A stretch of DNA of 64,000 nucleotides from Arthrobacter citreus (GTDB lineage Bacteria > Actinomycetota > Actinomycetes > Actinomycetales > Micrococcaceae). The translations under genes were made by a program, and so were the position numbers. The stretch is taken from positions 1,178,001-1,242,000 of the forward strand of contig NZ_CP151657.1 of NCBI RefSeq assembly GCF_038405225.1, written 5' to 3'. The notes under the pieces were generated by a model. That model had not been told where the DNA came from. It worked only from the letters and a program-made list of their open reading frames with translations, and ran no database searches. The number at the start of each line of letters is the position of its first letter. Within the stretch, counting starts at the first letter, position 1. Positions 31,489 through 50,609 of the stretch are shown one piece after another.

Positions 31489-33579
31489 ATGAGTCTTGCG
31501 CAGGACATCAAAAGAGTTGTCGCCCCCTTCGAAGTCATCAGCGATTACTCGCCCGCCGGCGATCAGCCCACCGCCATTAAGGAACTCGCCGAACGCATCA
31601 AGGCCGGCGAAAAGGACGTGGTCCTCCTCGGTGCCACGGGTACCGGTAAGAGTGCGACGGCGGCATGGCTGGTGGAGCAGGTCCAGCGGCCCACGCTGGT
31701 GATGGTGCAGAACAAGACGCTGGCCGCCCAGCTGGCCAACGAGTTCCGCGAGCTGCTGCCCAACAATGCGGTCGAGTACTTTGTCTCGTACTACGACTAC
31801 TACCAGCCCGAGGCCTACGTACCGCAGACGGATACCTTCATTGAGAAGGACTCCTCGATCAATGAGGAAGTGGAACGGCTGCGGCACTCCGCGACCAACG
31901 CCCTGCTGACCCGGCGCGACGTCATTGTGGTGGCAACCGTGTCCTGCATCTACGGCCTGGGCACCCCGGAAGAGTACATCGAGCAAATGGTGACCCTGCG
32001 CCGGGGGCAGCAGATGAACCGCGATGACCTGCTGCGCCGGTTCGTGGGGATGCAGTACGCCCGCAACGACATGGACTTCCACCGCGGGACCTTCCGGGTC
32101 CGGGGTGACACCGTGGAGATCATCCCGATGTATGAGGAAAACGCGCTGCGGATCGAGTTCTTCGGCGACGAGATCGAGAACATCTACACCCTGCACCCGC
32201 TGACCGGCGATGTCATCCGCGAGGAAGAGGAAATGTACGTCTTCCCGGCTTCCCACTATGTGGCGGGCGAGGACCGGATGCAGCGGGCCATCCGCAATAT
32301 CGAAGATGAACTGCAGGTGCGCCTGGCCGAGCTGGAATCCCAGAACAAGCTGGTGGAGGCGCAGCGGCTGCGGATGCGCACCACCTATGACCTGGAAATG
32401 ATGCAGCAGATGGGCTTCTGCAACGGCATCGAGAACTACTCCCGGCACATCGACGGCCGCGGTCCCGGCACCGCGCCGCACTGCCTGCTGGATTACTTCC
32501 CCGATGATTTCCTGCTGGTGGTGGATGAATCCCACGTCACCATTCCGCAGATCGGCGCCATGTATGAAGGCGACATGTCCCGCAAGCGCACCCTCGTGGA
32601 CCACGGCTTCCGGCTGCCCTCGGCCATGGACAACCGGCCGCTGAAATGGGACGAGTTCCTGGAGCGGATTGGGCAGACCATCTACATGTCCGCCACGCCC
32701 GGAAAGTACGAGCTGTCCAAATCCGATGGCTACGTGGAGCAGATCATCCGTCCCACCGGGCTGGTGGATCCGCAGGTGATCGTCAAGCCGTCCAAGGGTC
32801 AGATCGATGACCTGCTGGGCGAGATCCGGACCCGCACCGAGCGCAACGAACGCGTCCTGGTGACAACGCTGACCAAGCGGATGGCCGAGGACCTCACCGG
32901 CTACCTGCTGGAGCACGGCGTCAAGGTGGAGTACCTGCACTCCGACGTTGACACCCTGCGCCGCGTGGAGCTGCTGCGCGAGCTGCGGATGGGCACCTTC
33001 GACGTGCTGGTGGGCATCAACCTGCTCCGTGAGGGCCTGGACCTTCCCGAGGTGTCGCTGGTGTCGATCCTCGACGCCGACAAGGAGGGCTTCCTGCGCT
33101 CCTCCACCTCGCTGATCCAGACCATCGGCCGTGCCGCCCGCAACGTCTCCGGCGAGGTGCACATGTACGCGGACCGGATCACCGACTCGATGGCGAAAGC
33201 CATTGACGAAACCAACCGCCGCCGCGACATCCAAATCGCGTACAACAAGAAGCACGGCGTGGATCCGCAGCCGCTGCGCAAGAAGATCGCCGACATCACC
33301 GATTCCCTGGCCCGGGAAGACGCGGACACCAAGGCGCTGCTGGCCGAAGCCGCGGAAAAGAAGAACCGCAAGACCACCGGAAAGGGCAAGGGCGGGATCC
33401 GCAAGGACGGCCTGGCCGCTGCTCCCGCAGAGGATTTGGCCGGGCTGATTGCGTCCATGACCGAGCAGATGCACGCGGCGGCTGCGGAGCTGCAGTTCGA
33501 GCTGGCCGCCCGGCTGCGCGACGAGGTGGGGGACCTGAAGAAGGAACTGCGGCAAATGCAGAACGCCGGGCACGCCTAA
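31489..33579 (+). CDS. uvrB: UvrABC excision nuclease subunit B
   Basis: Damage-recognition helicase of nucleotide excision repair, 696 aa; works with UvrA and UvrC. Walker A is GATGTGKSA (48-56), the beta-hairpin that probes the damaged strand spans [20 protein letters not shown], and the helicase motif II is DESH (346-349). Domain 3 carries the DNA helicase motifs V and VI ([26 protein letters not shown]). The C-terminal UVR motif, which binds UvrA/UvrC, is at about 655-690. It is a single gene with a leaderless-type start; the reductase gene converges on it 17 bases downstream without a clear terminator. Confidence 0.98.
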
Positions 33580-33597
33580 GAATCTCCGGCGGGGAGC

Positions 33598-35025
33598 CTA
33601 GGCGTCGATTACCAGATCTGTACGCGCGGTGGAGCAGCAGGGCAGAAACTTGCCGGCATCGATTTCCCGTGACCGGATGCCGCCCTGGTGGTTCATCTCG
33701 ACGTCCCCGGACAGCTTGACGACCTTGCAGGAGCCGCACATTCCCTCCTTGCAGTTGGCGCCGATCCTCACGCCGGCACGCTGGGCCACTCCCAGGATGT
33801 GCTCGGCGGGGTCGATGCGCACGTTGATGCCGGTGCGCATGAAGGACAGGGTGAGGCTTCCCGTTCCCACGGTGTCGAAGCTCGAGGCATCGGGGGTCCC
33901 TTCCTCCGTCCCCGCGTCCGTCCCCGCGTCCGTGCTGCCTGCGGCGGCTTTGGCAGGAGGCCCGCCCGGATCGGCGGTTTCCAGCGGCAGCCCTGTGGAC
34001 TTTCGGGTCCCCCCGGCGTCGTGGCCGGGCTCGTACAACCCAAAGGCGGCGGGTTGGCGTTCGTAGTAGTCCTCAGCGGAACCGGCAATTTCCTTGGTGA
34101 TTCCCTCCGCGATGTCCACGGCGAATGCGAGCTCCGACCGGTACTCCAGCCTCGTCTGGCGGTCTCCGGAGAAAAACTCCATGTGGATTGAGGTGTCATC
34201 GACGCCGACCTTTCCGAGGAGTTCGGCGGCGGTGTTCAGATAGCTCTCGGGGCCGCAGGCGTACACCTGGCGGCCGTTGGCATCGGGGGCCACCTCATCC
34301 AGCATGGCCGCCGTGAGTCTTCCGGTGAGCCATTCCCACCCCTCGGGTTGGCTGCGGTCTCCCAGGGAGTAAAAGACCTTGATGCGCGAGTCCACGGAGG
34401 CGATGTAGGTCAACTCCAGATGAAAGGCAAAACCTCCGGCCGCCGCTCCGTGGTAGAGCACGATGACGTCGGACTGCCCGGGCAGGGAATGGATGGTCCG
34501 CACCATCGACATGATGGGGGTAATGCCCGCGCCTGCGGCCAGCAGGAGGTACCGGGCCCTCCGGTCGGCGTCGGGCAGGTGGAATGCTCCGACCGGTCCG
34601 AGCATTTCAAGGACGGTACCGGGTTTGACGTTTTCGTGCACCCACGGCGAGACCAGCCCCTGAGGATCACGTTTGACGGTGATATCGAAGGTCCACGGTT
34701 TGGTGGGCGAACTGGACAGCGAGTAGCTGCGGTCCACGGCCTCCTGGCCTTCACCGGTCACTGGAAAGGCGACGTTCACGTACTGGCCGGACCGGAACGC
34801 CAGAGGCGCGCCGTCGCAGCGGCGGAACACGAACGTCATCATGCCGCCCACCTCGGGAACCACCTCGACGCATTCAGCCATGAACTCCTGCGGATGCCAG
34901 GGACCCAAAGCGCGGGCGGCACCGGCGGCACCCCCCGTGCTGCCCATCACCCGGTTCCACGGCATCTCAAGACCGCGGATGCGCTGTGACTCCTGGACTG
35001 CCGCGACGGTGCCGAGTTCAATCAT
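33598..35025 (-). CDS. gbcB: Glycine betaine monooxygenase reductase subunit
   Basis: Electron-transfer partner of the Rieske oxygenase GbcA, 475 aa. Domains: FAD-binding barrel (about 45-150; RSYSLSSSP is the flavin motif), NAD(P)-binding domain (150-280; LLLAAGAGITPIMSMVR and YACGPESYL), a long low-complexity linker (about 325-390), and a C-terminal plant-type 2Fe-2S ferredoxin domain with C-x4-C-x2-C (CKEGMCGSC) and a last Cys in FLPCCS. Its ATG overlaps the stop of gbcA by four bases. The linker carries the repeat TDAGTDAG from a 12-bp DNA repeat and makes the protein about 100 residues longer than the Pseudomonas protein as I recall it. Confidence 0.9.
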   Translation of the reverse strand: MIELGTVAAVQESQRIRGLEMPWNRVMGSTGGAAGAARALGPWHPQEFMAECVEVVPEVGGMMTFVFRRCDGAPLAFRSGQYVNVAFPVTGEGQEAVDRSYSLSSSPTKPWTFDITVKRDPQGLVSPWVHENVKPGTVLEMLGPVGAFHLPDADRRARYLLLAAGAGITPIMSMVRTIHSLPGQSDVIVLYHGAAAGGFAFHLELTYIASVDSRIKVFYSLGDRSQPEGWEWLTGRLTAAMLDEVAPDANGRQVYACGPESYLNTAAELLGKVGVDDTSIHMEFFSGDRQTRLEYRSELAFAVDIAEGITKEIAGSAEDYYERQPAAFGLYEPGHDAGGTRKSTGLPLETADPGGPPAKAAAGSTDAGTDAGTEEGTPDASSFDTVGTGSLTLSFMRTGINVRIDPAEHILGVAQRAGVRIGANCKEGMCGSCKVVKLSGDVEMNHQGGIRSREIDAGKFLPCCSTARTDLVIDA

Positions 35026-36326
35026 GCCAAGTGCTCCTGCACACGCTGCACGTACCAGTTAATGAACGCCTCAACCTGGTATTCGCTTTTCATGTAGGGG
35101 CCCGGTTCGTAGGCGGGGCTGCCGGCGCCCTTCTGGCACAGCTCCACGAACGCTTTGTCCTGCAGATTGGTCTGCTTCCAGGTGTGCGTGAGTTTCTCTA
35201 CGTCGTAGTCGACGCCGTCCTCGGCGTCGTCGGCCACCAGCCAGGTGGTGCGCACCAGCGTCTGGTGTTCATTGACGGGAAAAACGGCGAACGTGATGAC
35301 GTGGTCCCCGAGGAAATGGAACCAGCTGTTGGGCTGCAGGTGCATCGAGCAGCGGCCAAGCCGGAAGTCCCGCAAGTCGCCGAGCAGCTTCTTGGACAGC
35401 CGGCGCCCGTCAGGGGAGAACGATTCGCCGTCACCGTCGAGTGATTCCCGGGAGATGCGGATGCCCGCCACTCGGGTGTCAAGCTCCTCGACAACTTCGT
35501 AGGGAAGGCCGTAACGGCGGCAACGGTCCTCGAGCAGTGACTGTGCCTCCTTGTTGCGGTCCCACACCTCCTCGAGATGGTGCGGGACCAGGCCCTCCGT
35601 CAGTCCCCAGGTGGGAAAGAGGGAACAGGCGAGTTCCGGGTGGCCGTCGCAGTGGTAGCACTCACGGTTGTTCTCCATGACGAGCTTCCAGTTGCCCTCT
35701 TCGATGATGTTCTGCTGGTAAGCGATTTTCGTCTTCGACAGGTCATGGGGCGCGAGGTAGGGCTCGAAGATTTCTCCGGTTTCGTCGAAATCCGTCGGCG
35801 GTTCGTCCGCAATGCAGATGAAGATCAGTCCAGCGACTATGCGGCTGTGGGCGCGCTTGAGGCCAAAACAGCCCTTGTCGAACTCTGTTTCCCCGGGCGC
35901 CGAAGCATGGATCAAATTGCCGTCGGGGGAGTAGGTCCAGGAGTGGTAGCCGCAGACCAGGTTTCCCGTGGTACCCGCCGGTTCGGTCAGGACACGTGCG
36001 CCGCGGTGGCGGCACACGTTGTGCAGCACGTTCACGCCGCCGTCGTCGTTGTGCAGCACGATCAGGGAGTAGGGCCCGTAGTTGACCGTGACGTAGTCGC
36101 CCGGCTCAGGGAGCTCGGCGACGCTCGCGGCAAAGATCCAGTGTTGGCCGAAAATGGCCTGCATGTCGATGGTGAAGACCGTCGGGTCGGTGTAGAAGGG
36201 TGCGTCGAGGGAGTATCCCGAGCGCCGGAATTCGAATAAACCGGTGATTTCGGCCAACTGATCGGCACGCAGCGATGAGGCGGGCTTTCCTCGTGCGTTG
36301 AGGGGTGTGTTCACTGGAGCGGACAT
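35022..36326 (-). CDS. gbcA: Glycine betaine monooxygenase, Rieske oxygenase subunit
   Basis: Catalytic subunit that demethylates glycine betaine to dimethylglycine with release of formaldehyde, using O2 and electrons from GbcB. The 434-aa protein has the Rieske cluster ligands C105/H107 (CRHRGA) and C125/H128 (CGYHSW), and the mononuclear iron site with H225 and H229 in NNRECYHCDGHPEL. The NNRECYHC context is shared by betaine- and carnitine-type monooxygenases. GGGAGGAAACAC precedes the ATG. Identity as betaine, not carnitine or stachydrine, enzyme is supported by the adjacent BCCT, dimethylglycine oxidase and sarcosine oxidase genes. Confidence 0.9.
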   Translation of the reverse strand: MSAPVNTPLNARGKPASSLRADQLAEITGLFEFRRSGYSLDAPFYTDPTVFTIDMQAIFGQHWIFAASVAELPEPGDYVTVNYGPYSLIVLHNDDGGVNVLHNVCRHRGARVLTEPAGTTGNLVCGYHSWTYSPDGNLIHASAPGETEFDKGCFGLKRAHSRIVAGLIFICIADEPPTDFDETGEIFEPYLAPHDLSKTKIAYQQNIIEEGNWKLVMENNRECYHCDGHPELACSLFPTWGLTEGLVPHHLEEVWDRNKEAQSLLEDRCRRYGLPYEVVEELDTRVAGIRISRESLDGDGESFSPDGRRLSKKLLGDLRDFRLGRCSMHLQPNSWFHFLGDHVITFAVFPVNEHQTLVRTTWLVADDAEDGVDYDVEKLTHTWKQTNLQDKAFVELCQKGAGSPAYEPGPYMKSEYQVEAFINWYVQRVQEHLA

Positions 36327-36405
36327 GTGTTTCCTCCCGGAAGAGCTGATCAGGGTGCGCTGAGGGGAGACCCGGGGCAGTCGGTTATCGAAACGTTGTA
36401 GTCCG

Positions 36406-36460
36406 AGACTAGAGACGGGTCATCTGCAGATAAAGCGCAACATCTTGGAGATATCAATGC
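36406..36460. promoter_or_regulatory. gbcAB/lysR divergent control region
   Basis: On the minus strand TTTATC (36434-36429), 17 bases and TAGTCT (36411-36406) could drive gbcAB. ATCTGCAGAT (36422-36431) is a perfect 10-bp palindrome across the -35. ATATCAATGC (36451-36460) repeats the sequence found beside the GntR palindrome at 39694-39703. LysR proteins bind such T-rich/A-rich intervals, but no single T-N11-A site stands out. Confidence 0.5.
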
Positions 36461-36471
36461 ACAATGGGTGC

Positions 36472-37404
36472 ATGATCGATCCTCGGCTCATCACACTCCG
36501 GGTGTTTGCCGGTTGCGGCACCGTTGGCACCACCGCGGAGCTCACGGGTTATTCTCCCTCCGCCGTCTCGGCGCAACTGCGGGAGCTCCAACGCGTGCTC
36601 GGAATGCAGCTGTTGACGAAGGACGGCCGGGGCGTGCGGCTGACCTCCACGGGCCGGTTTCTTGTAGAGGGCTCGGACCGGCTCATTGCGGAATGGGAGA
36701 GCCTGCGCGCCTCGGCCCTGGCGGCCGGCGGCCAGGTGCAGACGCGTTTCGGCCTTGGCGGTTTCTCCACCGCGGCGGCCCGGCTGCTCGCTCCGCTGGC
36801 CGCCACTCTGCGCTCAACACACCCCTTGCTGGAGGTGCAGGTACTCGAGGCCAACCCGGCCCGCTGCTTCGATTTGCTGGTTGCCGAGCGAATCGATCTC
36901 GCAGTCATCGTGGCCATGCAGTCCCACAGCTATGTTGAGGACGATCCGCGCTTCGAGCAGATTGTTCTGCTCGACGATCCTCTGGACGTGATCATTTCCT
37001 CCGACCACCCGCTGGCAGCGCGGGAAGCCGTGACGCTTGAAGAACTGGCGTCGGAACCGTGGATCACTGACGCCGCCGGTTCCGCCTACCATTCCCTCTT
37101 CACGGCAGCCTTCACGGCAGTCGGGGTGACGCCGCGGATTGCCCATGAGGCCGTTGAATGGGAGACCCAGATCGCCTTTGTCAGTGCGGGGTTGGGTGTG
37201 GGCCTGCTGCCGAGGCTGGCGCCCCTGCATCACGGTGAAAACGTGGTTCGGCTGCACATTACCGGCCGCGGGAAGCCTTCACGGCGCATAGTCGCCGCGG
37301 TGCGCACGGGCAGCATCACGTCTCCCCTGATACAGGAGTCGCTCGGGATCCTGCAGTCCAGCGCGGATTGCATCCTCACCACCCGGCCCCAAGACAGTCT
37401 CTGA
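36472..37404 (+). CDS. LysR-family regulator
   Basis: Transcriptional regulator of 310 aa, divergent from gbcAB and so probably their activator. The N-terminal winged helix reads LRVFAGCGTVGTTAELTGYS, then PSAVSAQLRELQRVLGMQLL; the rest is the two-lobed co-inducer domain (FDLLVAERIDLAVIV, VSAGLGVGLLPRLAP). ATG 36472 matches the usual family N-terminus; ATG 36457 has a better ribosome site (GGAG) and is possible. Effector unknown; betaine or dimethylglycine would fit the setting. Confidence 0.9.
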   Translation: MIDPRLITLRVFAGCGTVGTTAELTGYSPSAVSAQLRELQRVLGMQLLTKDGRGVRLTSTGRFLVEGSDRLIAEWESLRASALAAGGQVQTRFGLGGFSTAAARLLAPLAATLRSTHPLLEVQVLEANPARCFDLLVAERIDLAVIVAMQSHSYVEDDPRFEQIVLLDDPLDVIISSDHPLAAREAVTLEELASEPWITDAAGSAYHSLFTAAFTAVGVTPRIAHEAVEWETQIAFVSAGLGVGLLPRLAPLHHGENVVRLHITGRGKPSRRIVAAVRTGSITSPLIQESLGILQSSADCILTTRPQDSL

Positions 37405-37408
37405 TCAA

Positions 37409-37461
37409 GCAGCCCGCTTCAGCGGCACCCGGGGAAGCCGGGTGCCGCTGCGGCGGGCTGC
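37409..37461. terminator. Bidirectional terminator between lysR and BCCT gene
   Basis: Long hairpin: GCAGCCCGC/GCGGGCTGC outside and AGCGGCACCCGG/CCGGGTGCCGCT inside, separated by a three-base internal bulge on each side and closed by a five-base loop. No T run follows; it sits between two convergent genes. Confidence 0.8.
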
Positions 37462-37474
37462 TGCAATCGGACGG

Positions 37475-39496
37475 CTATTGACCGCCCGGATGCCGATGCC
37501 GGGGCTGGGTGGCTGGGATGCTGCCCGTGGGAGTCCGTCCCGGGCAGTCCGAGTCAGAGCACTTCTCGGCGCATTCGTGCTTTGTGACGAGGTCGAACTG
37601 CGCGCCGCCGTGCTGTTCCACGCCAGAGCGTATGGCCCGCTCGACGACGGATGTGGCCAGGCGGCGCCGCAGGGAAAGCGGATCGCGCCGCAGGTCCTTG
37701 GTGAGCGCAAAGCAGAGCAGCAGCATGACGATCATGAACGGCAGCGCTGCCACGATGGTGATGCGCTGCAGGCCCGCCAGGGCTTCCGATGGTTCATTTC
37801 CGCCGGCCAGCAGCATGACCGCCGCCACGGCGCCGGTAAGGCAGCCCCAGAAGATGACCACGCCGCGGCGGGGGTGCTCCGCACCGTTGGAGCTGAGCGA
37901 CCCCATCACAATGGAGGCGGCGTCCGCGCCGGTGATGAAGAAGATGGCGACGAGGACCATGGCCAGCACAATAACGGCGCTAACAGCCCAGTCAGGCATG
38001 CTCAGGTTCTTGATCAAGTCAAAAAGCGCTCCGTCGAAGTTCACGGACGGAGTTCCGTCGACCATGGTGACCAGCCCGGGGGAGTTGGCCCCTTCGGCTT
38101 CCTGCTGGATGTGGAAGGCTGTCCCTCCAAAGATGCAGAACCAGATCACGCTGACCACGCTGGGTACCAGCAGCACGCCGGTTACGAACTGACGGATGGT
38201 GCGGCCGCGGCTGATGCGGGCAATGAAGAGGCCTACGAAAGGCGTCCAGGACAGCCACCAGGCCCAGTAGAAAATTGTCCAGCTGGTCATCCAGCTGCGC
38301 AGTGACTCATCGCCGACCGCTTCGGTCCGGGTCGACATTTCGGCCAGGTCGCGCGCGTAGTCTCCCACCGCGGAGGGGATCAGGTTGAGGATGAAAAGGG
38401 TGGGGCCGACGACGAAGACCACCAGCGCAAGGATGGCGGCCAGGACCATATTGATGTTGGAGAGCCACTGGATGCCGCGGCTAATGCCGGAGACGGCCGA
38501 TGCGACGAAGCACAAGGTCAGGACGCCCACGATTGCCACGAGCACCGGCGTGCCGACTTGGCCGAACCAGCCGTTGGAGGTCATGCCGCTGCCGATTTGC
38601 AGGGCGCCCAGGCCCAATGATGCAGCGGTGCCAAACAGGGTGGCGAAAATGGCCAGGATGTTGATGAACTTTCCCAATGGCCCTTCCACCCTCCGGACGC
38701 CGAAAAGTGAGGTGAAGGCGACGGAGATCAGTTGCCGGCGTCCCAGGCGGTAGGTGCCGTAGGCCATGGCGATCCCCACGACGGCGTACATGGCCCACGG
38801 ATGCAGGGTCCAGTGGAAGATCGACGTTGCCATGGCCGTCTGGATTGCTTCGGGCGTACTACCGTCCACCGTTCCGGGCGGGGGAGAGACGTAGTGATAA
38901 AGCGGTTCGGCCACGCCGTAGAACATGAGCCCGATGCCCATGCCGGCGGCGAACATCATCGCAACCCAGGAGACGGTTCGGAATTCGGGCCTCTCGCCGT
39001 CCTTGCCCAGCGGGATGTTGCCGAACTTGCCCAGGGCCAGCCACAGGACGAAGATCACGAAAAGTGATGCCATCAGCATGAAGAGCCAGCCGGTGTACTC
39101 CATCACCCAGTTGAGGGCGCCGGTGGAGGACAGGGACAGACTGTCGCGCCCTGCAAAACCCCAGATAACAAAGGCAATGGCGATGGCTCCGGTGATCCCG
39201 AAGGTAATCTTGTCGAGGGACAGCTTGTGATTGCGTCGATTTGCGGCTGTCTGCTCCGTCTTGGCGTGACGGAGGTCTTCGAGGATCTGTTCGTACTCGA
39301 CGTCCGGGATGAGGAGTTCCTCTCCGTCCTCCGGATCGGGGACAGCGGAGGTTCCGTCTGCGTCACCGGGGACAGTAGTGACTGCCGTGCTCTTGCCCCC
39401 GTTCCGGGGTTCGTCGTGAAGTAAGCCGCCAGCCACCCCGTCATCGGCAGGCAGGTCCTCGGGCGTGTGGGATTTCTGGTCACTGTTGGAAGCCAT
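37475..39496 (-). CDS. BCCT-family glycine betaine/choline transporter
   Basis: Secondary transporter of 673 aa that brings in betaine or related trimethylammonium compounds with Na+ or H+. After a 90-residue acidic cytosolic N-terminus there are about twelve membrane helices. AAGMGIGLMFYGVAEPLYHY is the glycine-rich helix 3 and WAWWLSWTPFVGLFIARISR the family signature with the Trp cluster that cages the quaternary amine. The C-terminal tail (LRRRLATSVVERAIRSG, then a Cys-rich end with HECAEKCSDSDC) is long and unlike BetP. AAAGGA lies seven bases ahead of ATG 39496. In this island it most likely feeds catabolism, not osmoprotection alone. Confidence 0.93.
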   Translation of the reverse strand: MASNSDQKSHTPEDLPADDGVAGGLLHDEPRNGGKSTAVTTVPGDADGTSAVPDPEDGEELLIPDVEYEQILEDLRHAKTEQTAANRRNHKLSLDKITFGITGAIAIAFVIWGFAGRDSLSLSSTGALNWVMEYTGWLFMLMASLFVIFVLWLALGKFGNIPLGKDGERPEFRTVSWVAMMFAAGMGIGLMFYGVAEPLYHYVSPPPGTVDGSTPEAIQTAMATSIFHWTLHPWAMYAVVGIAMAYGTYRLGRRQLISVAFTSLFGVRRVEGPLGKFINILAIFATLFGTAASLGLGALQIGSGMTSNGWFGQVGTPVLVAIVGVLTLCFVASAVSGISRGIQWLSNINMVLAAILALVVFVVGPTLFILNLIPSAVGDYARDLAEMSTRTEAVGDESLRSWMTSWTIFYWAWWLSWTPFVGLFIARISRGRTIRQFVTGVLLVPSVVSVIWFCIFGGTAFHIQQEAEGANSPGLVTMVDGTPSVNFDGALFDLIKNLSMPDWAVSAVIVLAMVLVAIFFITGADAASIVMGSLSSNGAEHPRRGVVIFWGCLTGAVAAVMLLAGGNEPSEALAGLQRITIVAALPFMIVMLLLCFALTKDLRRDPLSLRRRLATSVVERAIRSGVEQHGGAQFDLVTKHECAEKCSDSDCPGRTPTGSIPATQPRHRHPGGQ

Positions 39497-39688
39497 GAGC
39501 GGATCCTTTGCTCGGTAAGGCAGGAGCCTGCGGTTAGATGCATGGCCGCCGGGAGTCGCCATCCGGAAGGTCCGGGGCCTGTCCGGTTGACAGTCATGAT
39601 GTTTGCCGTTGGCGATGTGAACTTCGAGGTGCCCCCTTGTGGGGTGAGGGAATTCAGGACTGATATGGTGTGTTACCAGCTGTGTAAC

Positions 39689-39721
39689 TGATATATCAAT
39701 GCCTAATGACAAAAATGTCAA
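39689..39721. promoter_or_regulatory. GntR-type operator and BCCT promoter
   Basis: TGATATATCA (39689-39698) is a perfect 10-bp palindrome. On the minus strand TTGACA (39721-39716) is an ideal -35 and the -10 expected 17 bases on (TGATAT) falls on this palindrome, so a bound repressor would block the BCCT promoter. A second small inverted repeat, TGACA-AAAA-TGTCA (39707-39720), covers the -35. The rest of the 270-base gap (39497-39766) shows nothing else. Confidence 0.72.
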
Positions 39722-39766
39722 GGACTGCGTGTTACGGCGTGGAGAACAGAGGGAGGAATCGTGGAC

Positions 39767-40462
39767 ATGGCGCAGGCAGGCCAATCACCGGCGGAGACGG
39801 AAGCGCCGGTGGTTCCGCCGAGGCAGGACGGCGAATCCTTCGCTGACTACGCGTACCGGATGTTGTGCGACGAATTGATCGTCCTGGACATTAAACCGGG
39901 CGAACCCCTCAACGATGATGTGATTTCCCGTCGGCTCGGCGTTGGCAGGACGCCAATCCGCGAAGCTATGAAGCGGCTGGAGAATGACCATTTGGTGGTG
40001 GCTTACCCCCGGCGGGGAACGTTCGCCGCCGGCGTGGACATCAAGGATTTGGCTGAGATCTCCGAGATCCGGCAGCTTTTGGAACCGGCCGCAGCCGCAC
40101 GGGCTGCGCGGTTTGCGTCCCCGCAGCTTCGGGAGGAACTTCGGGACTTTGCGCGTGAAGTGGGACAGCTGCTGCCCGGGATGACGTCGCAACGGGATCT
40201 CATGCGTCTGGACATGCGGGTTCACCGGATGATCTACCGGGCCACCGGAAGCAGGCACCTGGAGGACATCCTGGTTCGATACGACAACCTGGCAACAAGG
40301 ATTTGGAGCCTGGTGATTGAAAAGCTCCCGCCGGTCTCCGAGCATATTGCCCAGCATGTTGAACTGCTCGAACGCATCGCGGATGGAGATTCCGAAGCCG
40401 CTGCACGGCTGACCACGCGGCACATCACCGATTTCGAGAACCTCATCAGGGCTGTGCTCTAG
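39767..40462 (+). CDS. GntR-family regulator, FCD domain (first)
   Basis: Repressor-type regulator of 231 aa, divergent from the BCCT gene. The winged helix is at about 25-90 (NDDVISRRLGVGRTPIREAM, then KRLENDHLVVAYPRRGTF); the FCD effector domain has D-x4-H (MDMRVHRMIYRA) and two further His (HIAQHVELLE, TTRHITDF) that usually bind a metal and carboxylate ligand. It is a paralogue of the product of 44128-44805, with matching VAYPRRGTFA and RYDNLATRIW blocks. ATG 39767 has GGAGG ten bases ahead; GTG 39761 is the alternative. The likely ligand is an intermediate of betaine breakdown. Confidence 0.92.
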   Translation: MAQAGQSPAETEAPVVPPRQDGESFADYAYRMLCDELIVLDIKPGEPLNDDVISRRLGVGRTPIREAMKRLENDHLVVAYPRRGTFAAGVDIKDLAEISEIRQLLEPAAAARAARFASPQLREELRDFAREVGQLLPGMTSQRDLMRLDMRVHRMIYRATGSRHLEDILVRYDNLATRIWSLVIEKLPPVSEHIAQHVELLERIADGDSEAAARLTTRHITDFENLIRAVL

Positions 40463-40544
40463 CGCGGGTCCGCTTCGCCCGCCACCCGGCGCCGCTCCAT
40501 GGCGGCGGGATGCCATGGCCGGTGGGCTAGGCGCGGCCGGCGGG

Positions 40545-43079
<2,535 letters not shown>

Positions 43080-43093
43080 TTAGTGGTTGCTGA

Positions 43094-44008
43094 TTACCGG
43101 AACACGACGGTGCTGGTTCGATCCAGCAGTACACGGTGCTCGCAGTGCCACCGCACGGCACGGGAGAGTGCCAGTGCTTCGGCGTCCCGGCCAACTGTTG
43201 ACAGGGCAGTCGGTCCATAACTGTGGTCAACCCTGATGACTTCCTGTTCGATGATGGGCCCCTCATCCAGTTCCGGTGTTACGTAGTGGGCGGTTGCGCC
43301 CACCAGCTTGACGCCGCGGTCGTAGGCCTGGTGGTAGGGGCGTGCACCCTTGAATCCCGGGAGGAAGGAGTGGTGGATATTGATGGCCCGGCCTTCAAGG
43401 GAGCGGCAAAGATCGTTGGACAGTACCTGCATGTACCGGGCCAGCACAACGAGGTCGATGCTGTGCTCGTCCACCAGTTCCAGCAGGCGCCGTTCGGCAT
43501 CCAGCTTTGTCTCAGGGGTTACCGGGAGGTGGATGAAGGGGATGCCGGCTGCCTCGGCCATGGCCCGGTGGGTTTCATGGTTGGAAACGACAAGGGCGAT
43601 GTCGCCCCCGAGGCTTCCGCCCCGCCACCGGAAGAGCAGGTCGTTCAGGCAGTGGCCGAACTTGGACACCATGACGAGCAGGCGCTGCTGTGTCTGATCA
43701 TGAAAGCTGAACTTCATGTCGAAGCGCTCGGCGATCGGACGAAACTCTTCCTGGAGCCTCTCCGGGCTGTAGGCCGAGGTTCCCGAGAATGCGGAGCGAA
43801 GGTGCAGTGTCTGGCGGAGGTGGTCGTCAAACTGCTGGTGTTCGTCGATGTTAAAGCCACGCTCGAAAAGAAAGGTGGTGACGGCCTGGACTATGCCTGC
43901 GCGCTCAACGCATGAGAGGGTCAGCACAAATTTCCGGGTCTCGGGTTCCACGCGTGCCTCCGGCTGCGGCTGCGTGCGGGTGGACGAGTCTGTCGCGACA
44001 AGGGCCAT
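43094..44008 (-). CDS. purU: Formyltetrahydrofolate deformylase
   Basis: Hydrolyses 10-formyl-tetrahydrofolate to formate and tetrahydrofolate, 304 aa. An N-terminal ACT domain (about 25-110; FVLTLSCVERAGIVQAVTTF) is followed by the formyltransferase fold: VVSNHETHRAMAEAAGIPF, INIHHSFLPGFKGARPYHQA with the catalytic Asn and His, and HYVTPELDEGPII with the catalytic Asp. TAAGGAGTCGAC precedes ATG 44008. Being first in an operon with dimethylglycine oxidase, it can return tetrahydrofolate charged with carbon from demethylation. The first 20 residues are a variable extension. Confidence 0.96.
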   Translation of the reverse strand: MALVATDSSTRTQPQPEARVEPETRKFVLTLSCVERAGIVQAVTTFLFERGFNIDEHQQFDDHLRQTLHLRSAFSGTSAYSPERLQEEFRPIAERFDMKFSFHDQTQQRLLVMVSKFGHCLNDLLFRWRGGSLGGDIALVVSNHETHRAMAEAAGIPFIHLPVTPETKLDAERRLLELVDEHSIDLVVLARYMQVLSNDLCRSLEGRAINIHHSFLPGFKGARPYHQAYDRGVKLVGATAHYVTPELDEGPIIEQEVIRVDHSYGPTALSTVGRDAEALALSRAVRWHCEHRVLLDRTSTVVFR

Positions 44009-44042
44009 GTCGACTCCTTAGATATATTCTTGCTTCTAGAAC

Positions 44043-44093
44043 TGATATATCAGGACTGACCGTCAGCGTATACTGGCCATAGATCAAGGTCAA
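44043..44093. promoter_or_regulatory. GntR-type operator and purU promoter
   Basis: TGATATATCA (44043-44052), the same 10-bp palindrome as at 39689. On the minus strand TTGACC (44093-44088), 17 bases, TACGCT (44070-44065) may drive purU-dmg, which puts the palindrome just after the start of transcription. A related half-site GATATATTC is at 44030-44038. The divergent gntR promoter may use TATACT (44069-44074). Confidence 0.68.
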
Positions 44094-44127
44094 TAGCCTT
44101 TTTACTTGAGTGATAGGGGTCCGCACC

Positions 44128-44805
44128 ATGGCTTTTGAACTGCTGTCACAGGATGCCGCGGCGAAGAGGTCGCTGGCCGACGTAGCCTATGACCGCATCA
44201 GGGACCGGCTGTTGACGCTGGACATCAAGCCCGGCGCCCTCATCAATGACGACGACCTGGCCAAGGACCTGGGGATCGGCCGCACCCCGGTGCGTGAAGC
44301 GTTGAAGCGGTTGGAGTTGGATCGCCTCGTGGTCTCCTATCCGCGGAGGGGCACCTTCGCGACATTGGTGGAGGTCACCGATCTTGCGCTCATCTCCGAA
44401 ATCCGCCTCCAGCTTGAGCCTCTTGCCGCCTCCCGGGCCGCAAGGGTGGCGACGGAGCCGGTGAGGGAGCAGCTGCGGGGTGTTGTGCGCGCTGTCGAGG
44501 CTTTCGATATGGGTGCGGCCTCAGTTGTTGAAATCCTGCGCCTGGATGCCCGCGTGCATCAGGGCATCTACGCGGCCGCCGCCAATCCCCATCTCGAAGA
44601 CATCCTGATCCGCTACGACAACCTCGCGACACGAATCTGGTGCCTGGTGCTGGATCGCCTGCCCGATCTGACCTGTCATGTGCATGAGCATGTGGACCTG
44701 CTTCGTGCGGTTATCGACGGGGATGAAGCCAAGGCCGCGGAGCTGGCACGGATTCACGTCAGCGGCTTCGAACACGCTGTGCGCGAGGCCCTTTTTGCCG
44801 CTTAG
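44128..44805 (+). CDS. GntR-family regulator, FCD domain (second)
   Basis: 225-aa paralogue of the regulator at 39767. Winged helix INDDDLAKDLGIGRTPVREA, then LKRLELDRLVVSYPRRGTF; the FCD domain shows LDARVHQGIYAAA, HVHEHVDLL and ARIHVSGFEHA as metal/ligand positions. ATG 44128 follows AGGGG. It is divergent from purU-dmg and 200 bases ahead of the sox operon on the same strand, so it is well placed to control both. The shared operator sequence suggests that the two GntR proteins bind overlapping sets of sites. Confidence 0.92.
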   Translation: MAFELLSQDAAAKRSLADVAYDRIRDRLLTLDIKPGALINDDDLAKDLGIGRTPVREALKRLELDRLVVSYPRRGTFATLVEVTDLALISEIRLQLEPLAASRAARVATEPVREQLRGVVRAVEAFDMGAASVVEILRLDARVHQGIYAAAANPHLEDILIRYDNLATRIWCLVLDRLPDLTCHVHEHVDLLRAVIDGDEAKAAELARIHVSGFEHAVREALFAA

Positions 44806-44916
44806 CCGGACCTGCCCGCCGGCAATGGAGCGCAGTCAGGAAGGTCTGCGCTGCGCCAGGCAGGACCCGCACGCCGCGCGGCGCTCCCGGTCCTTGAAGT
44901 AAGCCCTTCCATACTG

Positions 44917-44980
44917 TTGACACCCAGGGGAGTCGATAGAATACTAAAGTCACCGATCTAATATATCAATAAAATATTAG
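44917..44980 (+). promoter_or_regulatory. sox operon promoter and operator
   Basis: TTGACA (44917-44922), 17 bases, AATACT (44940-44945). Directly after the expected start, CTAATAT (44958-44964) and ATATTAG (44974-44980) form an inverted repeat around ATCAATAAA; the left part contains ATATATCAAT, also present at the BCCT site. Repression by a GntR protein at about +7 to +29 is the simplest reading. Confidence 0.72.
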
Positions 44981-45001
44981 GTAGCAGACGGAGGAGAAAC
45001 G

Positions 45002-45076
45002 ATGGTCGACGTCCTGGCCCGCGCGCTCGCAGTCCTTTACCCCAACCTCTCCTCCGGCCCGACCGAGGGGGCGTGA
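45002..45076 (+). CDS. 24-residue leader peptide of the sox operon
   Basis: Tiny open frame starting ATG 45002 behind a very strong GGAGGAG site and ending in TGATG, where its stop overlaps the soxB start by one base. The soxB gene has no ribosome site of its own other than GAGGGGG inside this frame. The peptide reads [16 protein letters not shown] and then SSGPTEGA. Roles to consider: translational coupling only, or a sensing leader. I know no homologue. Confidence 0.6.
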
Positions 45077-46293
45077 TGGCCGATCTGCTTCCGGAGCATC
45101 CGGACTTCCTCTGGCACAACCCCGAACCGAAATCCTCCTATGATGCCGTGATCGTCGGTGGTGGCGGACACGGCCTGGCCACCGCCTATTATCTGGCCAA
45201 GAACCACGGTATGACGAACATCGCGGTCCTGGAGAAGGGATGGCTGGCCGGCGGGAACATGGCGCGGAACACCACCATCATCCGCTCGAACTATCTGTGG
45301 GACGAAAGCGCAGCGATGTACGAGCAAGCCCTGAAGCTGTGGGAGATCCTGCCTGAGGAACTGGAATATGACTTCCTGTTCAGCCAGCGCGGCGTGATGA
45401 ACCTGGCCCACACCCTGGGAGATGTCCGCGAGAGCATCCGCCGGGTCGGAGCGAACAAGCTCAACGGCGTGGACGCCGAATGGATCGACCCGCAGCAGGT
45501 CAAGGAACTCTGCCCCATCCTGAACATCAGCGACAACATCCGCTACCCGGTGATGGGCGCCACCTACCAGCCGCGCGCCGGAATCGCGAAGCACGACCAT
45601 GTGGCGTGGGCCTTCGCGCGTAAATGCGACGAACTCGGCGTTGACATCATCCAAAACTGCGAGGTTACCGGTTTCCTGAAGGACGGGAACCGTGTGGTGG
45701 GCGTTAAGACCAGCCAAGGCACCATTCACACCGAAAAGGTGGGGCTGTGCGCCGCGGGCCACAGCTCGGTTCTTGCCGAAATGGCGGGATTCCGGCTGCC
45801 CATCCAGTCCCACCCGCTGCAGGCACTGGTCTCGGAACTGCACGAACCCGTCCACCCCACCGTGGTGATGTCCAACCACGTGCACGTCTACGTCTCCCAG
45901 GCGCACAAGGGCGAGCTGGTCATGGGCGCCGGTGTCGATTCCTACAACGGATACGGCCAGCGCGGCTCCTTCCATGTGATCGAACACCAGATGGCTGCCG
46001 CCGTTGAGCTGTTCCCCATCTTTGCCCGGGCACACGTGCTGCGGACCTGGGGCGGAATTGTGGACACCACCCTGGACGCCTCACCCATCGTGGGCACCAC
46101 TCCGGTGGAGAACATGTTCGTCAACTGCGGTTGGGGCACCGGCGGGTTCAAGGGAACCCCCGCGGCCGGTCTCACCTTCGCCCACACCATCGCCACCGGG
46201 GCCCCGCACGCACTCAACAAACCCTTCGCACTTGAACGGTTCGAAACCGGCGCCCTGATCGATGAGCACGGCGCCGCAGCCGTGGCCCACTAG
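45076..46293 (+). CDS. soxB: Sarcosine oxidase beta subunit
   Basis: Catalytic subunit of heterotetrameric sarcosine oxidase (sarcosine + O2 + THF to glycine, methylene-THF and H2O2). 405 aa with N-terminal dinucleotide motif [20 protein letters not shown] for non-covalent FAD, and H173 in [10 protein letters not shown], the residue that carries covalent FMN in this family. The sequence from [12 protein letters not shown] to the terminal [11 protein letters not shown] follows Corynebacterium SoxB closely as I recall it. It is coupled to the leader peptide by TGATG. Confidence 0.97.
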
Positions 46294-46338
46294 CCGCCGT
46301 CGTCGTCGTCGACCCGGCATTCCAGAAAGAAGACGCAC

Positions 46339-46776
46339 ATGCTGCTCATCTCCTGTCCCAACTGCGGCTCACGCGACGAGATCGAGTTCCACTACGGCGG
46401 CCAGGCCCATGTGCCCTACCCGGAAAACCCGCATGAGCTGAACGGGCGCGAGTGGGCCGAGTTCCTGTTCTACCGGGACAACACGAAGGGTGTCTTCGCT
46501 GAACGTTGGCTGCACAGTACCGGCTGCCGGCAGTGGTTCAACATGCTCCGCGACACCGTTACCTACGACATCCAGGCCGTCTACCCCATGGGTACGTCCC
46601 GGCCGGATCCATCCGTCCCGGCCGCCGCCGAATCCGGCACTGCCAGCACCGCCGCCGACAGCACCACCACCGGCACCGCGGCGCCGAGCATCGCCGCGGC
46701 AAGCGCCCCTGTACCCGGAACCACCCCTGCCGCATCCACAGCCGGCACCACTGCTTCGGAAGGAGCCTCCGAATGA
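46339..46776 (+). CDS. soxD: Sarcosine oxidase delta subunit with Ala/Thr-rich tail
   Basis: Small zinc subunit of sarcosine oxidase, 145 aa. The zinc ligands of known SoxD are all present in register: C6 and C9 (SCPNCG), H59 and C63 (LHSTGC). The conserved part ends near residue 84 ([10 protein letters not shown]). The remaining 61 residues are almost wholly Ala, Thr, Ser, Pro and Gly, with no fold visible; usual SoxD is about 90-110 aa. The stop overlaps soxA by four bases. Confidence 0.95.
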
Positions 46777-49730
46777 CTCCCCAGAACGCGCGCCTGGCAG
46801 CCGGCGGACGCATCGACCGCACCATCTCCTGGCGCTTCACCGTGGACGGCGAGGAATTCTCGGGACACCCCGGGGACACCCTCGCCTCCGCCCTGCTCGC
46901 CAACGGCCGCATCGCCGTCGGCACCTCGCTGTACGAGGACCGGCCCCGCGGTATCCTGGCCGCCGGAGTCGAGGAACCGAACGCCATGGTCAGGGTGCAG
47001 CCGCGTTTCCCCGGTCATGTGGCCGAGTCCATGCTCCCCGCCACCGCGGTCACTCTCGTGGACGGCTTGGACGCGGAACTGCTCAACGGCCTGGGCAGGC
47101 TGGACCCGGAGGACGACCGCGCCGAGTACGACAAAAAGTACGTGCACACCGACGTCCTGGTCATCGGCGGAGGCCCGGCGGGACTGGCCGCGGCCCGCGA
47201 AGCCGTCCGCACCGGAGCCCGGGTCATGCTCCTCGACGATCAGCCCGAGCTCGGCGGATCCCTGCTGTCCGGTTCGACCGCGCCCGGACTGGCCGAGAAT
47301 ATCGAAGGCATGACGGCTCTTGAATGGGTGGCGGACGTCGAAGCGGAGCTCGTTTCAGGCTCCGAGTCCACTGTTCTCAACCGGACCACCGCGTTCGGTG
47401 CCTACGACGCGAATTACGTCATCGCGGTCCAGAACCGCACTGATCATCTGTCCTCCCCGGCCGCATCCGGGGTGTCCCGGCAGCGTATCTGGCACATCCG
47501 TGCCGCGCAGGTGGTGCTGGCGCCCGGCGCGCATGAGCGCCCGCTGGTCTTCGAGAACAACGACCGCCCGGGCATTATGCTGGCCTCGGCCGTCCGCAGC
47601 TACCTCAACCGCTACGCGGTGGCAGCAGGGCGGCGTGTGGTCATCAGCACGACGAATGACAGCGCCTATGTCCTGGACGGGGACCTGCGCGCCGCCGGAA
47701 TTGAAGTTGCAGCCGTTGTGGATGCGCGTTCATGCCTAACCGCTGTGGCTGCCGCCGCCGTCGAAGCCGGCACACGGGTGCTGATCGGCAGCGCCGTGGC
47801 CAATACCGCCGCTGACACCACTACGGCCGGCAGCGCAGGACGCCTGAAGGGTGTGACCGTCCGCGGCATCGATGAGGACGGCGCGCTGACCTCCAGTACC
47901 GAGCAGATTGCCTGTGACCTCCTGGCTGTTTCCGGCGGCTGGAGCCCCGTGGTCCACCTGCACTCCCAACGGCAGGGCAAACTCCGCTGGGACGACGGCC
48001 TGGCGGCTTTCGTACCGAGCACCACGGTCCCGAACCAGTGGATCGCAGGTTCCGGGCGGGGCAGCTTTGACCTCTCCGACTGCCTCACCGAAGGCATTTC
48101 CGCCGGAGCTGCAGCCGCCGTCGCCGCAGGGTTCAGCACCACTGCCGGCTACTCACCGCCCGGCACGCCAACGGCCTCCGCCCCCACCCGCCAGTTGTGG
48201 CTGGTTCCCGGTGAGGAGGGGACTCCGGATGACTGGCATCACCACTTCGTCGACTTCCAGCGCGACCAGTCCGTCGCCGACGTCCTGCGCTCCACCGGGG
48301 CCGGCATGCGCTCGGTGGAGCACATCAAGCGTTACACCTCCATCAGCACCGCCAACGATCAGGGCAAGACCTCAGGCGTCAACGCGATCGGTGTCATCGC
48401 CGCAGCCCTCCGGACGGCCGGCGAAGCATCCCGCGGCATCGGCGACATCGGCACGACCACCTACCGCGCACCCTTCACCCCGGTGGCGTTCGCCGCCTTG
48501 GCCGGCCGGCAGCGCGGTGAACTCTTCGACCCCGCCCGGGTGACAGCCATCCACTCCTGGCACGTGGATCACGGGGCCCTGTTCGAGGACGTCGGGCAGT
48601 GGAAGCGACCCTGGTACTACCCCCAGCCCGGTGAGGACATGGACGCCGCGGTCCTCCGCGAGTGCATCGCCGTCCGGGAATCCGTGGGCTTCATGGACGC
48701 CACCACCCTGGGCAAGATCGAGATCCGCGGCAAGGATGCCGGTGAATTCCTGAACCGCATCTACACCAACGCCTTCAAGAAGCTCGCCCCGGGCTCCGCC
48801 CGGTACGGCGTCATGTGCATGGCCGACGGGATGATCCTGGACGACGGCGTAACCCTGCGTCTCGACGAGGACCGCTACTTCATGACCACCACGACCGGGG
48901 GAGCAGCGGGAATCCTCGACTGGCTCGAGGAATGGCTGCAGACCGAATGGCCGGACCTCGACGTGCACTGCACCTCGGTCACCGAACAGTGGACCACCAT
49001 CGCCGTCGTGGGACCGAAATCCCGTGCGGTGCTGACGAAGGTCGCACCCGACCTGGCCGCTGACGGAGGACTCGAACCCGAGGCCTTCCCCTTCATGACC
49101 TTCAGGGAGACGACGCTTGCCTCCGGCGTGCCGGCCCGGATCTGCCGGATCTCGTTTTCCGGTGAACTCGCCTATGAGATCAACGTTCCCTCGTGGTACG
49201 GGCTCGCCACCTGGGAGGACGTGGCGGCGGCCGGAGCCGAATTCAACATCACCCCGTACGGCACTGAGGCCATGCACGTGCTCCGGGCCGAGAAGGGCTA
49301 CCCCATTGTCGGTCAGGACACCGACGGCACCGTTACCCCGCAGGATGCCGGCATGGAATGGGTGGTGTCCAAGGTCAAGGACTTCATCGGCAAACGCTCC
49401 CACACCCGCGCGGACACCGCCCGGCCCGACCGCAGGCACCTGGTCAGCGTGCTGCCCGTGGACCGGACCCTGCGGCTGCCGGAAGGCACCCAGCTCGTCG
49501 AAAAGGGCGTTAATGTCGATCCCGCACAGGGTCCCGTCCCCATGCAGGGTTTCGTCACTTCCAGCTATCACAGTGCCGCCCTTGGCCGCTCCTTTGCGCT
49601 TGCGCTGATCAAGAACGGCCGCAACCGGATCGGCGAGACCCTGGTTGCCGCCGCCGGTAACCAGTTCGTCGACGTCGTCGTCGGTGAAACCGTGCTTTTT
49701 GACCCCGAGGGGACCCGCAAAGATGGCTAA
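46773..49730 (+). CDS. soxA: Sarcosine oxidase alpha subunit
   Basis: Largest subunit, 985 aa. N-terminal ferredoxin-like domain without cluster (about 10-105), NAD-binding domain with [18 protein letters not shown] (about 128-145), central linker region, and a C-terminal GcvT-like folate domain (about 600-985) that passes the methylene group to tetrahydrofolate. [20 protein letters not shown] and [18 protein letters not shown] are folate-domain landmarks. GGAAGGAG stands eight bases ahead of ATG 46773. The two folate-using enzymes of the island (this and dimethylglycine oxidase) share this C-terminal domain type. Confidence 0.97.
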
Positions 49731-50361
49731 CACAGCAGCACTTAACGGCATCAACAACGGACTTCGGGGCATCCGGCGCAGTCCCGCCTCGCACCTGGCC
49801 GCCGCACTGGAAGCCGGGTCCGTCGAGGGGACGGTGGTCCTCGGTGAGCAACCGTTCCAGACCATGGCAGGCATCCGGGTGGACCCGTCCTCCGGGGAAG
49901 GTGCCCGGGTTGCCGCGGTGGCCGGCAGCCTGCCGGTCCGCTGCGGTGAGGTGGGCGGCGCCGACGGCGTCAATGTCTTCTGGCTGGGGCCATCCGAGTT
50001 TCTGGCGGTGGCACCGGAAGAGGCCCATGACTCGCTCGGCGGCAACCTCATCGGTTCCCTCACCGCCGCCCTTGGCGGGTCTCCGGGCCAAGTGGTGGAC
50101 CTGTCCGCGAACCGCACCACGTTTGAACTCTCCGGTATCCGCGCCCGCGCCGTCCTGGAAAAGGGCTGCTCGCTGGATCTGCATCCGAGCAGCTTCCTCC
50201 CGGGAACAGCCCTGAGCACCGAGGTGGGCAACATTCCGGTGATCCTCGAGAAGACCGGGGAGGAGAGCTTCCGCCTCTTCCCCCGGGCCTCCTTTGCGGA
50301 CTTCCTGGGCCGGTGGCTCCTCGATGCAATGCGCGAGTATGCCTCGCCGGAGGTCCCGTGA
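49723..50361 (+). CDS. soxG: Sarcosine oxidase gamma subunit
   Basis: 212-aa subunit of the same complex, related in fold to half of the GcvT domain. Landmarks: [48 protein letters not shown] (typical of SoxG) and [17 protein letters not shown]. It overlaps soxA by eight bases and is the last gene of the operon. No clear terminator follows before the riboswitch of the next gene. Confidence 0.95.
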
Positions 50362-50460
50362 TGGCTGTGGGAGTTTTTTCCCTACAAACTGACGGCCAGG
50401 GGAGGATTGGCTGTCAATGCAGTCGAGTGCTGAGCACCCTCCTGCGATAGACTTTTAGCC
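50362..50460 (+). promoter_or_regulatory. soxG-riboswitch gap with promoter of the TerC gene
   Basis: TAGACT at 50448-50453 is placed to start transcription near 50460, exactly at the 5' edge of the riboswitch. No good -35 is seen. A weak GGGA-TTTTTT-TCCC element near 50371-50385 might end sox transcription. Confidence 0.5.
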
Positions 50461-50578
50461 AGCGCAGGGGAGTATCCGTCCGCGCTGCATCCGTCAGCAC
50501 GCGGGACAGCATCGTCCCGCCGGGTGCAGCGGGCATCCGTCCGAACAACCCGTTCGCGGATGCCGGAGAGACTTGCGT
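50461..50578 (+). ncRNA. yybP-ykoY (manganese) riboswitch
   Basis: Structured leader of the TerC gene. AGCGCA (50461-50466) pairs with TGCGTT at the 3' end (P1). GGGGAGTA follows (the conserved 5' loop). GCTGCATCC/GGGTGCAGC forms a long stem that contains CGTCAGCAC, a GCGGGAC/GTCCCGC inner hairpin and the invariant-type CGG on the 3' side. A last arm is GGCATCCG/CGGATGCC with an inner CGAAC/GTTCG stem, and AGACTTG closes the aptamer. The order GGGGAGUA, CGUCA, CGG, AGACYU is that of the yybP-ykoY class, which binds Mn2+ and usually precedes manganese exporters and TerC-type proteins. Confidence 0.9.
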
Positions 50579-50609
50579 TCACTCCCGCGCCCGAAAGGTC
50601 CCCGTACAC

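Follow-up and report, generated by a model that had tools for sequence, protein, structure and literature searches.

The locus described here raises a simple question: was a gene island that seems to carry glycine betaine as far as glycine always without the genes that take glycine further? The island lies at positions 33598–50361 of a 64,000-nucleotide stretch of the Arthrobacter citreus genome (contig NZ_CP151657.1, positions 1,178,001 to 1,242,000; this whole stretch is called the window below, and its numbering is used throughout), and an open reading frame (ORF) check of the window found all twelve island frames intact at these coordinates. From left to right they are gbcB and gbcA (minus strand), lysR (plus), bcct (minus), gntR1 (plus), dmgO and purU (minus, purU being read first), and gntR2, soxB, soxD, soxA and soxG (plus). 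Our answer, which as a whole we hold to be likely, is that a betaine-to-glycine unit was acquired, stands under GntR-operator control, and was trimmed of glyA and sdaA in its present host.

The two ends of the sarcosine oxidase operon

Relatives of the island were collected through its dimethylglycine oxidase (DMGO), with one genome per species (GTDB 220). The scan gave 96 relatives, of which the best 80 were taken as loci with a 10-kb flank; the twelve island proteins, UvrB, TerC and the host's two serine hydroxymethyltransferases (SHMTs) were mapped onto them. The complete set of twelve genes, with order and orientation unchanged, is present in six of these 80 loci (L003, L004, L005, L011, L035 and L080), whose sources are Arthrobacter agilis, strain B0490, A. 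ruber, the metagenome-assembled genome RL58_bin.052, strain AL12 and A. cheniae. Thus, the joined arrangement, which an earlier note on this DNA had put forward as remarkable in itself, is common to several Arthrobacter. Just 54 of the 80 loci are at least 22.4 kb long, so that further full islands may have been truncated, either where a contig ends or by the 10-kb flank.

Each of the six full islands has glyA between gntR2 and soxB, its stop codon overlapping the start of soxB, and sdaA after soxG. Both genes are whole there, in contrast to what is found at the same two places in the window:

45002–45076, plus strand: glyA remnant of 24 codons, the N-terminus of GlyA fused in frame to its C-terminus with 1,224 nt missing; its stop overlaps the soxB start
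50361–50378, plus strand: probable sdaA remnant, about the first six codons (MAVGVF); ATGGCTGTGGGAGTTTT at 50361 agrees in 16 of 17 nt with the sdaA starts of L004 and L080

The first 31 nt of the glyA remnant (its 5′ arm) agree at 26–28 positions with the start of glyA in the six full-island relatives, and the last 44 nt (its 3′ arm) at 34–38 positions with the end of the gene there. Elsewhere in the window the two arms match at no more than 22 and 25 positions when both strands are considered, and at no more than 20 and 24 when the plus strand of 1–44000 is taken. In 6/6 relatives the distance between the arms is greater by exactly 1,224 nt, a multiple of three. From the arm matches and this constant spacing, it is clear that glyA is cut, by an internal in-frame deletion, to a remnant of 24 codons. 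The idea that glyA had never been part of this operon was rejected on account of the remnant at 45002–45076. The earlier note was right that the island has no intact gene for SHMT or serine dehydratase, but it missed the glyA remnant and, less certainly, one of sdaA; the operator-like site and the place of insertion are absent from it as well.

An assembly or sequencing error is a most improbable source of the remnant. Although the remnant is seen in one genome and is known from the assembly alone, that assembly is one closed contig, the two homologous arms stand at an exact in-frame distance, sdaA seems to be cut too, and a separate glyA remnant is common to G006 and G024, which are two further species of the genus. 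The sox operon of G006 and G024 differs (soxBDAG-purU, in genomes without DMGO), and before its soxB (L087 and L088) there is a match to GlyA residues 40–63 only (E 2e-6 and 8e-7) plus a weak second piece. In G024 the ORF before soxB reads MEAQGSVLTNKYTGGCPGRPEAELIGAAK-stop and ends overlapping soxB; by eye, its second half is similar to the C-terminal end of certain sox-linked GlyA proteins, for example that of L052. The remnant in these two species (L146 and L147) has another shape than that of the window, and it is preceded by a divergent gene whose N-terminus, by eye, is like that of an MFS transporter. Among the 29 genomes of the genus a close soxB occurs in three, and from the findings in the window, G006 and G024, all three are therefore without a whole glyA at that place.

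Elsewhere a whole glyA is the usual companion of soxB. Twenty-five of the 80 loci hold soxB, and upstream of it 22 of these have a glyA that is complete or almost complete (403–432 of 432 residues matched); of the other three, L044 has one in-frame stop in glyA, L082 a frame break, and L064 no glyA. L044 comes from strain ISL-30, in whose second DMGO locus (L006) glyA is whole. Among eleven further soxB loci, those of the same family (L089–L093) have glyA, those of the same order (L094–L096) show none, and three are from the host genus (L086–L088). Two points speak against a deletion from a glyA-bearing operon. In L064 and L094–L096, soxB is present with neither an upstream glyA nor any remnant found. 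In addition, a tblastn search with GlyA gave no match at E below 0.01 for the window's own remnant (L086); it was missed because the remnant consists of two short ends, and it was by those ends that it was recognised.

It is possible but doubtful that the 24 codons, instead of being a neutral scar, are maintained by selection as a leader through which translation stays coupled to soxB. The ribosome-site-like GGAGGAG before the remnant start, the reading frame and the soxB overlap are all intact, and the G024 remnant is likewise an open frame ending in a soxB overlap; against this, chance alone would retain the frame in one case of three, and the window's remnant is known from one genome only. 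A wider proposal, which we offer just as tentatively, would be natural operon trimming: sox operons in hosts with their own glycine-to-pyruvate genes would repeatedly lose glyA by internal deletion, and a short translated stump would retain the coupling to soxB. The genus would then hold two independent cases (the window, and G006 together with G024), with the stump as a selected leader.

The sdaA remnant is short and seems less certain than that of glyA. With up to three mismatches allowed, the ATGGCTGTGGGAGTTTT-type site occurs just once in the window (0.06 expected), and homology ends after it; the terC side of the chromosome starts at 50442. Measured from the soxG match, the gap between soxG and sdaA is 119–133 nt in L003, L004, L005 and L080 and 2–3 nt in L011 and L035. 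It counts against the assignment that the letters of the remnant fit the L004/L080 type, in which sdaA begins about 120 nt after soxG, whereas its one-base overlap with soxG fits L035. Two types of sdaA follow soxG in the relatives, one in L003, L004, L005 and L080 and the other in L011, L035 and others, and their identity to the host sdaA is about 76–77% or about 57–58%.

The expectation that glycine must be passed to genes elsewhere is correct. At 3.575–3.583 Mb (L148) the same chromosome carries a row of gcvP, a GcvT-like gene, a GcvH-like frame (by eye), glyA_1 and sdaA, the last two both intact. The second host glyA adjoins folD, with a purU-like gene 2–3 kb away. The same glyA-sdaA pair is present at 98% identity in G010, a near species without the island, and at 83–89% in G006 and G024. 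With glyA-sdaA already present beside gcvPTH, the recipient could have afforded to lose the island copies. In five of the six full-island relatives there are only two SHMT genes altogether, and one of these matches the sox-linked copy in place. The sixth (G063, the source of L035) has four SHMT genes, yet keeps its sox-linked glyA whole, a point against redundancy as the driver; since three other SHMT genes did not lead to its loss, redundancy does not force it. Host redundancy is thus a plausible cause of the glyA loss in a permissive, not a compelling, sense.

An operator-like palindrome at the GntR-linked promoters

The two GntR/FCD regulators were described in the earlier note as paralogues under which the island is jointly controlled. 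Their proteins are indeed 54% identical (113/208), and the promoters linked to them share a putative operator-like site:

39689–39698, no strand assigned: operator-like site 1, TGATATATCA, in the gap between bcct and gntR1
44043–44052, no strand assigned: operator-like site 2, TGATATATCA, in the gap between purU and gntR2
44958–44980, no strand assigned: operator-like site 3, the inverted repeat CTAATAT-N9-ATATTAG with TAATATATCA (at 44959) inside it, upstream of both the glyA remnant and soxB and 12 nt downstream of a −10-like box
44917–44945, plus strand: promoter-like TTGACA-17-AATACT before the sox operon (10 of 12); five such sites occur in 33400–50700, against 2.2 expected

The window holds three matches to TGATATATCA at up to one mismatch, compared with 0.18 expected in shuffles. 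In the whole genome the exact TGATATATCA occurs in the bcct/gntR1 and purU/gntR2 gaps only. The more general TRATATATYA has three sites in the 3.88-Mb genome, all at the GntR-linked promoters of the island (reversed-pattern control, 0), and none of these is in the lysR/gbcA gap of the window. That the operators of gntR1 and gntR2 might be unrelated was considered but rejected, the same site being present in all three gaps.

The relatives show the same distribution, counted at up to one mismatch. The site is present in 70/72 gntR2/purU gaps, in 5/5 gntR1/bcct gaps and in 19/20 gntR2-glyA gaps, as well as before gntR1 without an adjacent bcct (18/21) and before bcct without an adjacent gntR1 (13/27). 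Overall, 125 of 145 regions have it; for 29 other palindromes built from the same letters the figure is 0–3 of 145. Two small classes outside the 145 have the exact site in 3/3 regulator/glyA gaps and in 2/5 other gntR2 regions. In the six full islands nearly all GntR-linked gaps carry the palindrome at up to one mismatch, as in the window, and the longer CTAATAT-N9-ATATTAG inverted repeat precedes 20 of 26 glyA matches in the relatives. In the lysR/gbcA gaps of relatives the count is 0/24, with a two-mismatch site in three. This picture is weakened by the absence of the site upstream of a lone bcct in 14 of 27 cases, and also by the relatedness of the loci, because of which the counts are not independent samples.

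Since GntR1 and GntR2 are 54% identical and share these gaps, both may well bind the palindrome. The position of site 3, 12 nt past a promoter-like site, would suit a repressor. We therefore propose the two proteins, as candidates, to be most likely repressors acting at one operator class (TRATATATYA) at bcct/gntR1, purU-dmgO/gntR2 and the sox operon; gbcAB would lie outside this regulon and would probably be under the divergent LysR.

The uvrB–terC position and the origin of the island

On the chromosome the island is flanked by uvrB and terC, and G010 is without precisely this segment:

33580–50441, no strand assigned: segment between uvrB and terC absent from G010; the alignment stops at 33579, the last base of uvrB, and resumes at 50442

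A close DMGO (E up to 1e-60) is found in one of the 29 genomes of the genus, the window's own. Twenty-four other species of the genus were searched for terC; 14 have a close one (83–99%), and in 8/8 regions examined uvrB adjoins terC without an island, about 0.09–1.5 kb apart. No UvrB or TerC match (40% coverage) was found in the 80 DMGO loci, and the six full islands differ from that of the window in having neither uvrB nor terC alongside. From the uvrB–terC position, together with the DMGO not found in the 28 other species of the genus, the island was probably absorbed as a horizontally acquired catabolic unit, and transfer from an Arthrobacter relative would be the simplest reading. At fourfold sites the island genes are 62.7–65.5% identical to those of L003, L004, L005 and L080, compared with 44.5–50.1% for uvrB and terC. 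The distance between uvrB and terC is about 1.4 kb in three of the same-genus species (L180, L181 and L182) and 0.09–0.25 kb in the five others; uvrB–terC may be a favoured insertion point.

The island might instead be ancestral in the genus and have been lost by the other species. DMGO loci do occur in many Micrococcaceae-like relatives, and the island proteins are 64–97% identical to those of the six full islands, hence a transfer would not be very recent. However, this explanation requires loss in 28 of 29 species, the eight uvrB–terC sites examined are island-free, and uvrB and terC stand near none of the 80 DMGO loci, so that we regard it as unlikely. Several observations also weigh against acquisition. 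The fourfold contrast is weak for L035 (63.2 versus 59.3) and for L011 (51.8 versus 46.8, terC only), and the flank set in this comparison is two genes, with uvrB in part only. The window contains no tRNA, and Pfam and NCBIfam reveal no integrase among the twelve genes. No repeats were found within either edge, the longest run common to both being 6 nt direct and 8 nt inverted, with a shuffled mean of 6.8. In the search for an insertion mechanism, no Rfam match at the gathering threshold was found; the GC content gives no island signal.

Gene content, substrate and proposed history

The protein families of the twelve genes were checked with Pfam and NCBIfam, and both agree with the gene set that the earlier note had read from the sequence:

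33598–35025, minus strand: gbcB-like reductase of a Rieske oxygenase (Pfam FAD_binding_6, NAD_binding_1, Fer2; NCBIfam GbcB is the best match)
35022–36326, minus strand: gbcA-like Rieske oxygenase, predicted glycine betaine monooxygenase (Pfam Rieske and Ring_hydroxyl_A; NCBIfam GbcA is the best match)
36445–37404, plus strand: LysR regulator, divergent from gbcAB (Pfam HTH_1 and LysR_substrate)
37475–39496, minus strand: BCCT betaine importer (BetP of C. glutamicum is the best solved match, 5e-152)
39761–40462, plus strand: gntR1, GntR/FCD regulator (Pfam)
40545–43037, minus strand: folate-coupled DMGO (Pfam DAO, FAO_M, GCV_T, GCV_T_C; collinear with 1PJ5)
43094–44008, minus strand: purU, formyltetrahydrofolate deformylase (TIGR00655 above cut-off)
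44110–44805, plus strand: gntR2, GntR/FCD regulator (Pfam)
45073–46293, plus strand: soxB (TIGR01373 above cut-off)
46339–46776, plus strand: soxD (PF04267; TIGR01374 above cut-off)
46773–49730, plus strand: soxA (TIGR01372 above cut-off; 2gag/1vrq)
49723–50361, plus strand: soxG (TIGR01375, 124 bits, below the cut-off of 143.95)

PurU, SoxB, SoxD and SoxA thus pass their NCBIfam cut-offs and SoxG falls somewhat short. The four sox genes are contiguous, as in tetrameric sarcosine oxidase, whose 2gag/1vrq chains SoxA matches. DMGO is 87% identical to the A. globiformis enzyme 1PJ5 and aligns with it at 830 of 830 positions without a gap. It has STSHAPG at 45–51, H225, Y259 and D552, which we take to be active-site positions. 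Both folate-coupled enzymes named earlier are borne out by these matches, and the gene families support the claimed content from uptake to glycine. Eleven Pseudarthrobacter/Arthrobacter loci (L039, L040, L041, L043, L045, L047, L048, L054, L071, L072 and L081) carry two DMGO genes on one strand, the copies being 86–87% and 66–69% identical to the window DMGO; the second may have another substrate. For the BCCT the sequence points to the ATG at 39496 as the likely start (the longest ORF would start at 39784). The protein passes the subfamily model bcct (497 versus 407.55 bits) and stays below the betaine equivalog NF047988 (522 versus 650).

The Rieske pair is less closely defined. GbcA and GbcB are best matches to the equivalog models NF058607/NF058606 at 380 and 227 bits, far under the cut-offs of 670 and 500. 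The nearest solved chains are 3n0q (332 bits), 4qup and 3vca (both 327 bits), the last two of which we take to be Stc2, so that the protein is about as near to Stc2 chains as to its best solved chain. Low scores and this proximity both count against a glycine betaine enzyme. Because of the scores below cut-off and the near-equal bits to 3n0q, 4qup and 3vca, the substrate assignment rests on context, from which glycine betaine would be the substrate. A second GbcA homologue was sought in the host genome at E up to 0.001 and not found. The ECYHC of the Rieske protein aligns with identical letters of 3vca, and a CxxC pair beside the mononuclear iron site is described for some Group V Rieske oxygenases acting on quaternary ammonium compounds (PMC10952381). 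Stachydrine demethylase (Stc2) and carnitine oxygenase (CntA) are, in the same source, Group V enzymes alike in their Rieske centre, mononuclear iron and CxxC pair; they differ in their substrates, and the similarity of the window enzyme to them is moderate (327 bits to 3vca, 91 bits to CntA).

It follows that the enzyme might act on another trimethylammonium or betaine compound, for example proline betaine, the island then encoding a broader betaine pathway. The scores below cut-off and the near equality of 3n0q and the Stc2-type chains are in its favour. Yet 32 of 80 relatives have a gbcA at more than 60% identity in their DMGO locus (contig ends cut many of these loci), DMGO accepts the product of betaine demethylation, and the importer is closest to BetP. 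We therefore consider another substrate very unlikely and retain glycine betaine.

The pathway as such is known in Arthrobacter, and a joined island is of a known kind. Gene clusters for dimethylglycine and sarcosine in this genus were reportedly treated by Meskys et al. in 2001, to whom the paper on Arthrobacter sp. Rue61a refers. According to that paper, Rue61a grows on glycine betaine and sarcosine and has a sox cluster with glyA, soxBDAG, sdaA and purU and a separate DMGO, with a BCCT (c04460) near the latter (c04530) by locus tag (PMC3534580). Its betaine route is labelled 'incomplete' in a table of the paper (PMC3534580), and in contrast to the window its sox cluster (c39610–39670), which contains both glyA and sdaA, stands far from DMGO to judge by the locus tags (PMC3534580). 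Colwellia psychrerythraea 34H has a horizontally acquired island with glyA-soxBDAG-purU beside gbcAB; unlike our host it is a gammaproteobacterium, with glyA retained and the operon duplicated, and DgcAB, not DMGO, is named there as the Pseudomonas enzyme for dimethylglycine (PMC3691474). The A. arilaitensis sarcosine oxidase is stated to be 98–100% identical to that of Stenotrophomonas maltophilia (PMC2991359), a further sign of the mobility of sox genes. In the open-licence PMC literature we found no report linking the palindrome TGATATATCA to GntR, no joint treatment of betaine, DMGO, GntR and sarcosine, and no glyA remnants in sox operons. New are therefore the trimmed glyA and, probably, sdaA, the operator candidate confined to the island, and the insertion between uvrB and terC.

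Taken together, these findings suggest the following course. The BCCT would import glycine betaine; the GbcAB-like Rieske oxygenase would remove the first methyl group, the folate-coupled DMGO the second and the tetrameric sarcosine oxidase the third. The latter two enzymes convert their methyl groups to methylene-tetrahydrofolate, from which, after FolD, PurU can drain one-carbon units as formate. The FolD step would here be supplied by a gene elsewhere in the genome before PurU acts. The ancestral sox operon would have been glyA-soxBDAG-sdaA; in the lineage of the window, glyA would have lost an internal piece of 1,224 nt in frame, and sdaA probably all but its start.

The absence of glyA had given the impression that the island never had this gene; the remnant shows otherwise. 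The locus would thus be a snapshot of a transferred pathway being fitted to its host, with the redundant end removed and the promoter, the operator and the soxB overlap kept. With an operator candidate that has three sites in the genome, all of them in the island, the betaine regulon of Arthrobacter-like bacteria becomes directly testable.

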